From Fastidiosipila sp. (GTDB lineage Bacteria > Bacillota > Clostridia > Saccharofermentanales > DTU023), in NCBI GenBank assembly GCA_012837885.1, contig DUQI01000095.1, positions 1-57,831 of the forward strand: 57,831 nt of DNA. The letters are read 5' to 3'. Below are positions 924 to 53,725 of this stretch, piece after piece. Below the pieces are notes generated by a model, which worked only from the letters and a program-made list of their open reading frames with translations, was not told the origin of the DNA and ran no database searches. The position numbers and the translations under genes were made by a program. Within the stretch, counting starts at the first letter, position 1. Each line of letters begins with the position of its first letter.

Positions 924-2732
924 TTATTCGTCGAGTTTCAAAACGCTCATGAACGCTTCCTGCGGCACTTCTACCGTGCCGATACGACGCATGCGTTTCT
1001 TACCTTCTTTTTGTTTTTCTAGCAGCTTCTTCTTCCGCGTGATGTCACCACCGTAGCACTTGGCGATAACATCCTTGCGGTAAGCACGCACTGTTTCTCT
1101 GGCGATTATCTTACCACCGATCGCTGCTTGAATCGGTACCTCGAATTGCTGTCTCGGTATATGCTCTTTCAACTTCTCCGCCATGCGTCTGCCTCTGGCA
1201 TACGCATGATCTCTGTGGATGATGAACGAAAGGGCATCGACGACTTCGCCGTTGATCATCATATCAAGTTTAACCAAATCGGCAACTGCATAATCGGAGA
1301 ATTCATAGTCGAGTGAAGCATATCCTCTGGAGCGCGATTTCAGAGCGTCGAAGAAATCATAAATGATTTCATTCAACGGCATTTTATAATGCAGCTGGGC
1401 ACGCTGATCGTCGATGTACTCCGTATTGATATAGACGCCTCTTCTCTCATGACACAATTCCATGATGTTTCCCAGAAACTCTTTCGGCGTCATAATCGTC
1501 GTGTTGACGATCGGTTCGAAATATCGCTCAATGGTCGAAGGATCAGGCAGATTCGTCGGATTATCGAGTCTTATCTTTGATCCGTCCGCCATCTCAAGTT
1601 GATAGACAACCGAGGGTGCCGTCGAGATCAAATCGAGATCGTATTCTCTTTCCAGGCGCTCCTGAATGATCTCATAATGCAAAAGTCCCAGGAAGCCGCA
1701 ACGGAATCCAAAGCCGAGCGCAGCGCTCGTCTCCGGTTCAAATGACAACGCCGCGTCGTTTAGTTGCATCTTTTCCAAAGCATCTCGCAGATCCTGATAG
1801 TCGCCGCCGTCGACCGGATACATGCCGCAGAACACCATCCGTTGCATCGGTTTATAACCGGGCAGCGCTTCACTCGCGCGCTTTTCATTTAAGGTGACCG
1901 TATCACCGACACCGATGTCTTTGACATTCTTGATCGCGGCAACGATATATCCGACATCACCGTGTTCGAGAGACTTCGTGGAAAACGGAGCACCCGGCGA
2001 AAAATATCCGAGCTCTGTCACGGTAAACGTCTTTTTCGTGTTCATCGTATAGATCTCGTCGCCGACTTCAAGTCTGCCGTCACGGATCGCGACATGCAAA
2101 ATCACGCCTTTGTAAGTGTCGTACTCAGAGTCGAAGATCAGGGCACGAAGCGGCGCTTCGGCTTCGCCTCTGGGCGGTGGCAGATGGGTCACGATCTTGG
2201 CCAATACTTCTTCGATATTGATATCGCTTTTGGCCGAGATCAGGGGGGCATCTTCAGCGTCGATACCGATCACGTCTTCGATATCACGCCGCACTTCTTC
2301 CGGTCTGGCCGCTGCCAGATCGATCTTGTTGATCACGGGAAGGATCTCGAGATCTTCTTCGATCGCAAGATACACGTTCGCGAGTGTCTGTGCTTCGATA
2401 CCCTGCGCCGCATCGACGACCAATACGGCACCGTCACAGGCACGCAGAGTCCTCAACACTTCATCATTGAAGTCGACGTGACCGGGTGTATCGATCAGGT
2501 TTAAGGTATACGTTTGGCCGTCAGCCGCTTTATACGACATACGCACAGCCTGCGCCTTGATCGTGATACCGCGTTCACGCTCCAGATCCATGTTGTCTAG
2601 AACCTGAGACTGCATCTCGCGCGTCGTCAACACGCCCGTATGCTCGATCATGCGGTCGGCCAACGTCGACTTTCCGTGGTCGATATGCGCGATGATACAA
2701 AAATTTCTAATTAATGACTCACGATCAATCAT
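924..2732 (-). CDS. lepA: Elongation factor 4 (LepA GTPase)
   Basis: 602 aa; [45 protein letters not shown]; LepA C-terminal domain. Confidence 0.97.
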
Positions 2733-2738
2733 GCTTTG

Positions 2739-3395
2739 CTACGGTACCCCTATTGTCTTGAACGGAAAAATACGAATCAGTACTTCACCGATAATATCAT
2801 TCTTATGGATCGGGCCGAACGTACGGCTGTCTAAACTGGCGTCGCGATTGTCACCCATCACATAATACTCGTCTGCACCGAGAGTCACCTCCTGATACAT
2901 GGAGTTCTTGACACGTGTTTTTGCGCTCGCTGCCAAATAAGGTTCTTCCAGCAACTCACCGTTGACATAGACGAAACCACCATCTAGTTTCACATGATCA
3001 CCGGGAAGACCGATGACCCGTTTAATGATGTTTGCCTGTCCTTCATTAAACGATCGGTTTTCCATGTGTACCGTGATGATGTCGCCCCTCGACACACCGC
3101 CAAACCACTTCGACACTTTTTCAATCAACAGCTCATCTTTTTCTTTCAACGTCGGGAGCATCGATTTACCGATGACCGTATTTCGCTGAATGACAAACGT
3201 CGTCAACAACAGGCCGAGCGCGAGCGCGATGACAATAACTTTGAACCATTCCCAGAGGCGCCTGCTTAACGGCTGCGGGACTTTCTTGTCGGGCGATGGC
3301 TCCTGATATTGTTCTTCCATTGGCGGCGTCACATGACGGTCCTCATACTGCCGGTTTTCTTCCCCGCTATATCCCTTGTGCTCGTAACCGTCCAC
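2739..3395 (-). CDS. lepB: Signal peptidase I
   Basis: GKSMLPTL and VMGDNRDASLDSRTFGPI motifs. A GTG start at 3395 (just after the aspS stop) is more likely than the tracked ATG at 3464 inside aspS. Confidence 0.92.
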   Translation of the reverse strand: MDGYEHKGYSGEENRQYEDRHVTPPMEEQYQEPSPDKKVPQPLSRRLWEWFKVIVIALALGLLLTTFVIQRNTVIGKSMLPTLKEKDELLIEKVSKWFGGVSRGDIITVHMENRSFNEGQANIIKRVIGLPGDHVKLDGGFVYVNGELLEEPYLAASAKTRVKNSMYQEVTLGADEYYVMGDNRDASLDSRTFGPIHKNDIIGEVLIRIFPFKTIGVP

Positions 3396-17849: not shown

Positions 17850-17884
17850 AAAAAAACGCCATCTGATCCATCCATCAAATAGCG
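17850..17884 (-). terminator. Intrinsic terminator in the kal leader (riboswitch expression platform)
   Basis: Minus strand CGCTATTTGAT-GGATGG-ATCAGATGGCG-TTTTTTT: 11-bp stem (9 WC + 2 GU), 6-nt loop, 7 U, 29 nt before the kal ATG. Confidence 0.85.
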
Positions 17885-18036
17885 CTCCGTGTAGCACACG
17901 ACAGTGGCCGCTGTTGTCGCGAACCACCAGAGTTGACACCGGGACAATGTGTCATCCCTTCGGCGACCGGCACTTCACCGCTTCCCACCTTGCCCCGGTG
18001 ATCGGAATTGGATACCCGCAGATCGCTCCTCTACTT
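17877..18036 (-). promoter_or_regulatory. Lysine riboswitch (L-box)
   Basis: Minus strand AAGTAGAGGAGCG...GTCGCCGAAGGGATGACAC...GTGTCAACTCTGGTGG...CCACTGTC...GGAGCGCTATTT carries L-box signatures (AGAGG, GCCGAAG, ACTGTC); P1 AAGTAG/CTATTT and P4 TGACAC/GTGTCA pair. Confidence 0.88.
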
Positions 18037-18160
18037 CTTTTATTCAATTATGCATACACATAATAACGGACAAAAGGGACAAATGACAACACCAAATAAG
18101 AGAAAATATCAACACATTGATGAATACCGGCAAGCGGGATAAAAGATGCTACACTGACCG

Positions 18161-50608: not shown

Positions 50609-50784
50609 TGTCCATCTCTCATTAATGAATAGCGGCAGATGCCGCTACTAAACAGTTCCATCTTATCATGACCGACGTCGAATGCGTGGTTTTCCAGCGT
50701 AGGTTCAGTTGTCCGCAAAAACGTCATTGCTTTTTATTAGGCGAAGTAAATGGCAACGTCAAGACGCTTGTGCTATTCTATTGT

Positions 50785-50880
50785 CAGAAATGATTCCGAG
50801 CAATCTTGCCTTCACTGGCAACTTGCCTATGGGTTTTACTGGAAACGGTATAGCCTCCCACGCTTGGAAAGGAATCCTGC
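50785..50880 (+). promoter_or_regulatory. Moco/Tuco-type riboswitch (molybdenum/tungsten cofactor RNA), P3-less form
   Basis: GATTCCGAGC...GGAAACGGTATAGCCTCCCACGCTTGGAAAGGAATC: CCGAGC, GCCUCCC and GGAAAG signatures; P1 GATTCC (50792) / GGAATC (50871); no hairpin between GCCTCCC and GGAAAG. Confidence 0.75.
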
Positions 50881-50928
50881 GTATTTCGTACGGCCCTTTA
50901 CAGCGTGGAATTACATTCTCCTTCTGTT

Positions 50929-50952
50929 ACAGGGCGGTACGCCCTGTTTTTT
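50929..50952 (+). terminator. Intrinsic terminator in the AOR leader
   Basis: ACAGGGCG-GTA-CGCCCTGT-TTTTT, about 35 nt before the AOR start. Confidence 0.85.
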
Positions 50953-50987
50953 GTTTAGCAAAAAACAACAAAGAAGGAGGATTTTTC

Positions 50988-52805
50988 ATGAACACAACGT
51001 ACAACCTGAAACGACTGCGCGTCAATTTGACCGATCGGACATGGAAGGTCGAGCCGATCGACCTTGATGAAGCGAAAAAATACATCGGTGGCCGCGGGCT
51101 GGCAACGAAATGGCTTTACGATGCCGGATGCGCGACAGTCGATCCGCTTTCGCCTGAAAACTTACTGATCTTTGCGAACGGTCCGTTGACCGGGACGAAT
51201 TCACCGACGGCCGGACGCTACATGGTCATTACGAAGCAACCGATCAATAACAAGATCGGCTCGGCTAATTCCGGCGGCACCTGGGGAGCGCGCTTAAAGT
51301 ACGCCGGCTACGACGCGATTATCTTCGAAGGCAAAGCCGATGCACCGGTGCGTCTCTTCATCGACGACGATCATGTGGAGATTCTCGACGCCTCCGACCT
51401 GTGGGGAAAGAAGTCTACGGAATGTAACGACATACTGCGCGACATTCACGGTGAGAAGTCAAATTCTCTCTATATCGGTCCGGCAGGCGAACAACTGTCG
51501 ATGCTTTCTTGTGTCATGAATGACACGGACCGCGCCGCCGGCCGAGGCGGCGTCGGAGCCGTCATGGGAAGCAAAAACTTAAAAGCGATCACCGTAAAAG
51601 CGTCACGTAACATTGTCGATGCTTACGATAAAGAAGCGATGAAAGCTGCATTCAAGCGATCGCTCGATCTGTTCAAAGAGAACGGCGTCACGTCTACCGG
51701 TCTACCGACTTACGGCACCGCCGTACTGGTCAACATTATCAATGGTATCGGTGCGCTACCGACGAAGAACTGGCAGGAAGCGCATTTCCCGGAAGCAGAA
51801 CAGATCAGCGGCGAGGAGCTGGCGGAAAAATACCTAGTGCGTCGCGGACACTGTCACCGCTGCACGATCGGCTGTGGGCGCGTCATCGAGCGCGAAGGAC
51901 GTGAGGTGGGCGGTCCAGAATATGAGCCGCTCTGGGCTTACGGTTCAAACTGCGGTGTAAGCGATCTGCCTTCCATCAACGAGGCAAATTTCCAGTGTAA
52001 CGAATACGGACTCGATGCTATCGGCACGCCGACGACGATAGCGGCAGCGATGGAGCTCTGGCAAAGAGGTTATATAAAGCCCGAAGAAAATAAAGATCTG
52101 CCACCACTCAAATGGGGTAACGGCGAAGCGATCGTCGAATGGACGAAGGCGATGGGCGAAGGCAAAAATGAACTAGCCAAACTGATGGCACAAGGTTCCG
52201 CTATACTTTGCGACCATTACGACGCGCCCCAGTACTCGATGAGCTCGAAACGTATGGACATGCCGGCCTACGATGCAAGAGCGATTCAAGGGATCGGTCT
52301 CAACTATGCGACGTCAAATCGCGGTGGATGTCACGTACGCGGTTATACGATATCGCCTGAAGTACTCGGATTGCCTGTTCAATCGGATCGCACCGAGACT
52401 TCCGGAAAAGCAGAACTTGTGAAACTCTTTCAGGATCTGACGGCTGCCATTGACTCACTTGGTGTCTGTCTGTTCTCCTCTTTCGCACTCGGTGCGGCGG
52501 AATATGCGACCTTGTTCAACGCAGCGACCGGGTCTTCCCTGTCGCCTGAAGAATTCTTAGAGGCCGGTGAGCGTATCTACAATCTGGAACGCTTATTTAA
52601 TAAGGACGCCGGCATGGAGCAAGCAGAAGACAGCATGCCGGATAGGGTGCTCAAAGAGCCAATCCCGAGCGGTCCGTCGGCAGGCATGGTGTCTAAGCTC
52701 GATGAAATGCTGCCTGAATACTATGCGGTCAGAGGATGGGTCGACGGTTTTCCGACAAAAGAAACGCTGGAACGCCTGCTCATCGCAAGCGAGGTGACGA
52801 ATTGA
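50988..52805 (+). CDS. Aldehyde:ferredoxin oxidoreductase (tungsten-containing family)
   Basis: MNTTYNLKRLRVNLTDRTWKVEPI; GRGLATKWLYD; RAAGRGGVGAVMGSKNLKAI; C-X2-C-X3-C in GHCHRCTIGCGR; RBS AAGGAGG. Confidence 0.92.
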   Translation: MNTTYNLKRLRVNLTDRTWKVEPIDLDEAKKYIGGRGLATKWLYDAGCATVDPLSPENLLIFANGPLTGTNSPTAGRYMVITKQPINNKIGSANSGGTWGARLKYAGYDAIIFEGKADAPVRLFIDDDHVEILDASDLWGKKSTECNDILRDIHGEKSNSLYIGPAGEQLSMLSCVMNDTDRAAGRGGVGAVMGSKNLKAITVKASRNIVDAYDKEAMKAAFKRSLDLFKENGVTSTGLPTYGTAVLVNIINGIGALPTKNWQEAHFPEAEQISGEELAEKYLVRRGHCHRCTIGCGRVIEREGREVGGPEYEPLWAYGSNCGVSDLPSINEANFQCNEYGLDAIGTPTTIAAAMELWQRGYIKPEENKDLPPLKWGNGEAIVEWTKAMGEGKNELAKLMAQGSAILCDHYDAPQYSMSSKRMDMPAYDARAIQGIGLNYATSNRGGCHVRGYTISPEVLGLPVQSDRTETSGKAELVKLFQDLTAAIDSLGVCLFSSFALGAAEYATLFNAATGSSLSPEEFLEAGERIYNLERLFNKDAGMEQAEDSMPDRVLKEPIPSGPSAGMVSKLDEMLPEYYAVRGWVDGFPTKETLERLLIASEVTN

Positions 52806-53023
52806 TCACGGTGAAGCTGTTTGCCACATTCCGCGAAGGACGTGGAAAAGAGCAGGTCTTCGACGAACAGGTACTCCGTACACCTAGGGATATTTGCACA
52901 GAGCTGAACATCCCGCCAGATAGCGTCGGAATCCTCTTGATCAATGGATTTCACGCCGCATTCGATGACGAACTAAAAGACGGCGATCTCGTGTCGCTCT
53001 TCCCACCGCTGGCCGGCGGTTAA
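52802..53023 (+). CDS. MoaD/ThiS-like sulfur carrier protein
   Basis: TTG start overlapping the AOR stop; ITVKLFATFREGRGKEQ...DGDLVSLFPPLAGG* with C-terminal GG. Confidence 0.85.
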   Translation: MITVKLFATFREGRGKEQVFDEQVLRTPRDICTELNIPPDSVGILLINGFHAAFDDELKDGDLVSLFPPLAGG

Positions 53024-53041: not shown

Positions 53042-53725
53042 TTACGAGAAACCGATCTTCGTCAACTCGTGTGTCTGCACATTGAATCTGAACAGCGTAT
53101 TCGGATGCAGGTGACTATCATTTAGCAGATAGGCGAGCAAGAGATTGATCTGCATGGAAGCAACGATAGGCGGCAGTGTCGGCAAGTTAGCCGTCACTGC
53201 CGCTTTTCCTTTCGTCACATGAGCATACAGTTGCTCCATATAATTTTTGTCTGGCAAAAACAGACCGTATTGACCTTCCCAACCGGAAAGTGACCCGTGA
53301 ATCAGGGGAATCTTCAGCTGAACCGAAAAATCGCCGAGGAGAATCCTCGTATCGACATTATCGAGACAATCGATAATAAAGTCGGCATCGAGAAAAAAAT
53401 CGATATCAGCTTCATCTTTTAACCACACCTGGTGTGCCTCGACGATTGTTTCGGAGTTAATCGATTCGATATCGGCTTTGGCGGAGAACACTTTCGCCTT
53501 ACCTATACGAGATTCAGTGGCAAAGCGCTGCCGATTGAGATTCGTCTCTTCAAAAGCATCACCATCGATCAAGATCAGGCGGCCGATGCCAAGCCTCGTG
53601 CAGAGTTCCGCCACGTGGCCACCAAGACCTCCGAGACCGACGATAGCAACCGCCACCTCCCTGAGCTCGGATTGTTTTTTAGAAGAGATTAGCGGTTGAT
53701 TACGATCGTAGCGATGCGTGAACAT
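53042..53725 (-). CDS. ThiF/MoeB/HesA-type E1-like adenylyltransferase
   Basis: 227 aa; IVGLGGLGGHVAELCTRLGIGRLILIDGDAFEETNLNRQ, DCLDNVDTR; no Zn-binding CxxC pair. Confidence 0.88.
   Translation of the reverse strand: MFTHRYDRNQPLISSKKQSELREVAVAIVGLGGLGGHVAELCTRLGIGRLILIDGDAFEETNLNRQRFATESRIGKAKVFSAKADIESINSETIVEAHQVWLKDEADIDFFLDADFIIDCLDNVDTRILLGDFSVQLKIPLIHGSLSGWEGQYGLFLPDKNYMEQLYAHVTKGKAAVTANLPTLPPIVASMQINLLLAYLLNDSHLHPNTLFRFNVQTHELTKIGFS

Follow-up and report, generated by a model that had tools for sequence, protein, structure and literature searches.

The 57,831-nt contig DUQI01000095.1 of Fastidiosipila sp. (assembly GCA_012837885.1; hereafter the window, meaning the whole stretch of DNA analysed) carries, upstream of a gene for an aldehyde:ferredoxin oxidoreductase (AOR), a leader that a first-pass annotation had read from the sequence as a P3-less Moco/Tuco riboswitch with a terminator and a candidate antiterminator. 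The locus raises the question of whether such an RNA would turn its gene on or off, and in response to which form of the cofactor.

A covariance-model search (cmscan, Rfam 15), of the kind the first-pass annotation had suggested as a check, matches the leader to RF01055 with a score of 54.0 bits (E-value 3.6e-10, gathering score 36; Table 1), and this is the single RF01055 match in the 1.9-Mb source genome. All of the RF01055 junction blocks and helices P1, P2, P4, and P5 are present. In particular, the blocks CCGAGC (50796-50801), GCCTCCC (50853-50859), and GGAAAGG (50866-50872), and the P1 pairing of GATTCC with GGAATC, lie where they had been placed. The absence of P3 is upheld, on different grounds from those first given: the six bases between GCCTCCC and GGAAAG, taken as the place of the missing helix, are the loop of P5, while the interval between P2 and P4, where the model has P3 (model positions 59-73), is reduced to CUAU (50827-50830). 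P2 comprises two short helices, lacks the tetraloop receptor CCUAAG...UAUGG, and spans 31 nt together with the junction; of the usual, not universal, pair of a GNRA loop on P4 and a receptor in P2, the window has a GAAA loop and no receptor. P5 keeps the pairs CC/GG (CCC...GGAAA) in place of a GC/GC swap, as do two relatives, G035 and G009. A model built from AOR-linked aptamers (R1, see below) scores the window at 68 bits (50792-50876), the window being among its 18 building sequences. The element is a genuine, shortened member of the Moco/Tuco riboswitch family.

Table 1. Positions of the RNA and gene features discussed in the text (window numbering, except for the last two rows)
Feature	Position	Strand	Basis and remarks
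RF01055 Moco/Tuco riboswitch aptamer, P3-less, receptor-less	50782-50890	+	cmscan
P1 5' strand: core GAUUCC 50792-50797, extension GAAAU 50787-50791	50787-50797	+	pairs with 50871-50876 and 50883-50887, from sequence; core pairs checked
P1 3' strand: core GGAAUC 50871-50876, 6-nt bulge, extension AUUUC 50883-50887	50871-50887	+	cmscan; sequence
P2: GCAA/UUGC 50800-50803/50823-50826 and UUGCC/GGCAA 50806-50810/50817-50821, without tetraloop receptor	50800-50826	+	
P4, GAAA tetraloop at 50842-50845	50831-50856	+	cmscan; aptamer parsing
P5: CC 50857-50858 / GG 50866-50867	50857-50867	+	cmscan; R1 alignment
Alternative ligand-free helix CCACGCU 50858-50864 / AGCGUGG 50902-50908, disrupting P5 and aptamer core	50858-50908	+	minimum-energy fold
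Anti-antiterminator hairpin: 50870-50872 and 50876-50881 with 50887-50890, 50892-50893, and 50895-50897	50870-50897	+	fold; same hairpin in G035; coupling versus shuffles
Antiterminator 5' strand GUACGGCCCU	50888-50897	+	9/10 pairing here, 10/10 in G035
SD-sequestering 11-bp helix 50915-50925/50972-50982, terminator inside; SD AGGAGG 50975-50980	50915-50982	+	fold
Intrinsic terminator: 8-bp stem 50929-50936/50940-50947, U tract to 50952	50929-50952	+	fold; terminator scan
Antiterminator 3' strand AGGGCGGUAC = terminator 5' arm and loop	50931-50940	+	sequence; G035 retains the loop GUAC
AOR/WOR-type aldehyde:ferredoxin oxidoreductase, 605 aa	50988-52805	+	Pfam AFOR_N, AFOR_C; solved AORs, among them 1aor, matched over the full length
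MoaD/ThiS-like sulfur carrier, overlapping the AOR gene end	52736-53023	+	Pfam ThiS; MoaD-type NCBIfam below cut-off
ThiF/MoeB-like gene	53042-53725	opposite to AOR	
Antisense RF01055 RNA, L160	566-681		against AOR 1185-2984 (-)
Antisense RF01055 RNA, L172	from 569		against AOR 1227-3026 (-)

Both elements that had been proposed for the expression platform are recovered. A terminator scan finds a single site in the leader, the stem 50929-50947 with its U tract, where shuffled sequences lead one to expect 0.4, and the pairing of GTACGGCCCT with AGGGCGGTAC holds at nine of ten positions. The short receptor-less P2, three further helices of the platform, and the direction of the switch were absent from the first-pass annotation. 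Specifically, the minimum-energy fold of the ligand-free leader contains a hairpin that sequesters the 3' strand of P1 together with the 5' strand of the antiterminator, a helix that disrupts P5 and the core (a relative of which is possible in G035), and a helix that encloses the terminator and hides the SD. A second hairpin (50946-50966; GUUUUUUGU UUA GCAAAAAAC), in which the terminator U tract pairs with a downstream A tract, is near-identical in G035; it is unable to contribute to the termination event, since the A tract is transcribed later. A pattern scan upstream of the element found no sigma-70 promoter pattern. The AOR frame is open upstream across the whole leader (ORF 50709-52805, TTG start), the segment 50709-50987 probably being open by chance.

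The computed coupling between P1 and the terminator in the window is +8.7 kcal/mol (soft constraints): with P1 closed the terminator is disfavoured by 1.5 kcal/mol, and with P1 open it is favoured by 7.2 kcal/mol. None of 100 dinucleotide shuffles of the linker reaches this value (mean 0.5, sd 1.4). The leader of G035, the nearest relative found (AOR 78% identical), gives +6.3 kcal/mol, again with 0 of 100 shuffles as high. The G035 antiterminator pairs at all ten positions (GUAUGGCCCU/AGGGCCGUAC), and G035 retains the terminator core CAGGGC/GCCCUG and the loop GUAC, the bases of which are needed by the antiterminator alone. Since the 3' strand of P1 shares one hairpin with the 5' strand of the antiterminator, closure of P1 should free the antiterminator, and we predict that the leader is a ligand-ON switch. 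The unpaired probability of the SD rises from 0.0 in the terminator state to 0.46 with P1 and the antiterminator imposed. At equilibrium, the full-length RNA with P1 alone imposed reverts to the state with the terminator formed and the SD hidden, indicating that the switch must act during transcription. These indications of polarity are computed secondary structures throughout, from a model that comprises neither pseudoknots nor ligand.

To place the window among its relatives, we ran RF01055 against the order and 392 genomes from the class, and R1 against the class and 399 genomes from the phylum. The R1 alignment has 24 pairs with 89% of cells paired, and its covariation exceeds that of all 500 shuffles. 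We parsed 211 aptamers, comprising 149 RF01055 matches (set D) and 62 R1 matches (set V, partly selected for a short P2). AOR/WOR genes follow 34 of the 211, and a terminator was recognised by script in 27 of these leaders; all 27, from 23 genomes and 11 GTDB families, are predicted ON, with a median of +8.3 kcal/mol. The same uniform script assigns the leaders of other genes (tungstate/molybdate transport, moaA, moeA, hydrogenase-type and other oxidoreductase genes, and iron-type binding proteins) as 108 OFF, 7 ambiguous, and 5 ON, with a median of -5.9 kcal/mol (Fisher P 8e-25, not corrected for relatedness). The contrast is also seen within the 12 genomes that hold both kinds of leader, with two script exceptions.

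The definition of a terminator was altered after results had been seen, and the strict-search result is given here beside the final one. Under the strict script, 11 of 13 AOR-linked leaders are positive (the ferredoxin-first G209:C145 counted), with one positive value among non-AOR leaders. The two negatives are G295, whose 13-bp stem was lost to the loop limit and which is positive in later searches, and G444, an unclear case whose hairpin reaches P1 through outer pairs only. A looser terminator search was rejected, as it chose long antiterminator-like hairpins in non-AOR leaders, and was replaced by a choice on energy per length.

The route to ON differs among these leaders. In 25 of the 27 the P1 3' strand itself lies within the 5' arm of the terminator, and the window and G035 alone use the longer anti-antiterminator route. 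G009, a terminator-less relative, has an SD complementary to the aptamer CCUCCC, from which we predict an ON switch at the level of translation.

The window leader could instead be an ordinary OFF riboswitch, in which binding of the cofactor promotes the terminator and silences the AOR gene, in line with the general proposal for the family. Repression was proposed for the Escherichia coli member in the part of PMC2408646 available to us, most surveyed leaders are OFF, and the window terminator itself has no overlap with P1. We nevertheless consider this reading unlikely: P1 closure disfavours the terminator in both the window and G035 beyond every linker shuffle, we saw no stable antiterminator that includes the 3' strand of P1, and the AOR-linked leaders with a recognised terminator point uniformly the other way.

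Two side observations concern OFF-type RNAs. Of the genes with the script label 'FdhA', at least the member tested is mislabelled and is an NADH-dependent [FeFe] hydrogenase; OFF-type RF01055 RNAs precede genes for this enzyme (L103 and leaders of the same cluster), where the cofactor would shut the hydrogenase off, possibly as part of a swap between hydrogenase and tungsten enzyme. In G368 and G476, which belong to one genus, an RF01055 RNA with an OFF-type terminator faces an AOR gene in antisense orientation and points into its 3' end (Table 1). If the antisense RNA represses, the cofactor would again turn the AOR on, by another route.

The AOR-linked aptamers differ from the others in structure as well. 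P2 plus junction has a median of 34 nt in AOR-linked aptamers versus 42 nt in others, and measures at most 38 nt in 31 of 33 versus 17 of 160 (several of the 17 also being WOR operons). The P5 pairs CC/GG are replaced by GC/GC (GCC...GCAAA) in 29 of 34 versus 6 of 177; among these six, an AOR lies further along the operon in G629 and G320:C29, G755, G877, and G644 resemble WOR operons truncated at the end of the stretch or contig, and G653 precedes a DMSO-reductase-type gene. The P4 tetraloop is GAAA in 166 of 177 other aptamers, versus a mixture of GCAA (12), GAAA (10), GUAA (8), GUGA (2), and GCGA (2) in the AOR-linked set. Nearly all AOR-linked aptamers lack the P2 receptor; receptor loss was rejected as an AOR-specific mark, since RNAs without the receptor also occur, in a few cases, ahead of tupA, moeA, or unassigned genes. 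The window shares with the branch a terminator disfavoured by P1 closure, a short receptor-less P2, and an AOR/WOR gene downstream, and it lacks the P5 swap, which is common in the branch but not required; it is a minority form of the AOR-linked branch, with CC/GG kept.

The reduced P2, the absent P3, and a bit score below that of typical members would also suit a degenerate relic that has lost its ligand response and leaves the terminator alone to set a constant level of expression. That the window is such a relic seems to us very improbable, as the window has its junction blocks, P1, P4, and P5 intact, G035 retains all of these, the coupling exceeds that of shuffles, and the AOR-linked set covaries, including a compensatory change in P5.

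The downstream gene bears on the ligand. The ORF had been called a tungsten-type AOR, and the Pfam matches (Table 1) and a full-length alignment to 1aor (E-value 2e-187) agree with its placement in the AOR family. From the AOR family we infer that the enzyme uses tungsten. The true start of the MoaD/ThiS-like gene behind it is, judging from the sequence, probably nearer 52804. Elsewhere in the genome, a cluster at L087 850-6849 reads mogA-MOSC-moaA-moaC-modC-modB-modA-moeA-like (names from reading translations, except moaA). Molybdopterin and molybdate-transport clusters are usual targets of RF01055, and the genome search detected no RF01055 element at this one. A single molybdopterin oxidoreductase is also present in the genome; its gene has an in-frame TGA and presumably encodes a formate dehydrogenase with selenocysteine. 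A further riboswitch in the window, a lysine aptamer (RF00168, 60.5 bits), lies at 17872-18041 on the reverse strand.

By analogy with the correlation of Regulski et al. 2008 (PMC2408646) between P3-less RNAs and tungsten genes, taken from the part of that paper available to us, and given the family of the downstream gene, it is plausible that the window RNA senses the tungsten cofactor (Tuco). The same ON switch might instead respond to the molybdenum cofactor or to a metal-independent form of the pterin. The genome has modABC beside the moa genes, in a moa/moe/mog cluster that looks complete, so the cofactor could carry molybdenum, and P3 status is not a clean marker of the metal in our survey: three P3-containing RNAs precede a TupB-type permease, which matches tungstate TupB better than molybdate ModB yet falls below the TupB cut-off. 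Such a ligand appears rather less probable than the tungsten form, as solved AOR-family enzymes are mostly tungsten enzymes (tungsten-named structure entries were matched, in line with established knowledge of the family) and as P3-less RNAs show the correlation just cited; we would call it doubtful. In another genus of the window's family, three P3-containing RF01055 RNAs (L092, L093, L094), with GGAGG right behind P1, precede a DMSO-reductase-type gene; these are a Moco-type counterpart of the window's P3-less RNA.

Our preferred reading, to which we assign a probability of about 0.65, is that the window holds a cis-acting, P3-less, receptor-less RF01055 riboswitch that would turn the AOR/WOR gene on with a pterin cofactor, most likely in its tungsten form. 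Without ligand, P1 would be open, the P1 3' strand would pair with the antiterminator 5' strand in the hairpin, assisted by the alternative helix, and the terminator would form and halt transcription; in any read-through mRNA, the SD would be hidden. With ligand, P1 and P5 would close, the freed antiterminator strand would pair with the terminator 5' arm and loop and block the terminator, and the SD helix would be disfavoured. The outcome would be to restrict production of the enzyme to times when its cofactor exists. In this scheme, we infer the identity of the ligand, its binding, and the kinetic order of events. The reading draws on the family match, on coupling beyond shuffles in the window and G035, on the antiterminator kept in G035, and on the 27 of 27 AOR-linked leaders that are ON. 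Against it stand the use of the anti-antiterminator route in two leaders only, the other 25 ON leaders showing direct overlap, and, for the metal, the molybdate-transport and cofactor genes described above.

Comparison with known systems places the window within a known family. Regulski et al. 2008, in the text available to us, defined the family and its P3-less group, proposed the Moco/Tuco split, described a few members that lack the receptor, and put forward repression as the outcome; that text reports neither an ON branch nor a link between receptor loss and AOR. The window shares with that P3-less Tuco-type group the junction sequence, P1, P4, P5, the lack of P3, a gene for a cofactor-dependent enzyme downstream, and a terminator platform; it differs in lacking the P2 receptor and in being predicted ON instead of OFF, the polarity proposed in the text available.

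A Moco-RNA has been reported in Eubacterium limosum upstream of an operon described as a hydrogenase complex (PMC5651825). One of our aptamers, G560:C1:3421013-3421126, ends at the position of that RNA and very probably is that RNA. It precedes a WOR operon with a ferredoxin-type ORF, AOR, a NuoE-like subunit, and further subunits, which fits the order WorSLCBA given for E. limosum WOR1 (PMC13328260, where riboswitches are not mentioned). Like the window, the G560 RNA is receptor-less and predicted ON; unlike the window, with its anti-antiterminator and CCC...GGAAA, it has a terminator that overlaps P1 directly and a swapped P5 (GCC...GCAAA). Antisense Moco riboswitches are also known (PMC9943018). 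These resemble the window as RF01055 RNAs that would raise an enzyme gene with cofactor, and two candidates face AOR genes here; they are predicted OFF on an antisense transcript, whereas the window has a sense leader. Tungsten-dependent riboswitches are mentioned for iron transporters of E. limosum in the part of PMC13390469 available to us, with Putumbaka et al. 2025 given as the source. The predicted AOR-linked ON branch of this known family is apparently new, as we found no earlier description in the papers available to us; a prior mention of WOR leaders in Putumbaka et al. 2025 is possible.

Whether P3-less RNAs sense the tungsten cofactor has been a question since 2008, partly owing to the instability of the cofactor and to the loss-of-signal readout of OFF reporters. 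An ON switch on a tungsten enzyme would offer a gain-of-signal reporter, usable in the genetically tractable gut acetogen E. limosum. The structural contrast in receptor, P5 pair, and platform separates branches within one riboswitch family. We put forward, tentatively and at somewhat less than even odds, that the AOR/WOR-linked RNAs form a separate branch with a receptor-less aptamer adapted to a nucleotide-free tungsten bis-pterin and acting as a feed-forward ON switch, and that the branch with the receptor uses this ligand, or one related to it, to repress uptake, synthesis, and alternative enzymes. If the ON switch predicted for the window is true, cofactor supply would gate production of tungstoenzymes, a common class of enzyme in gut bacteria.
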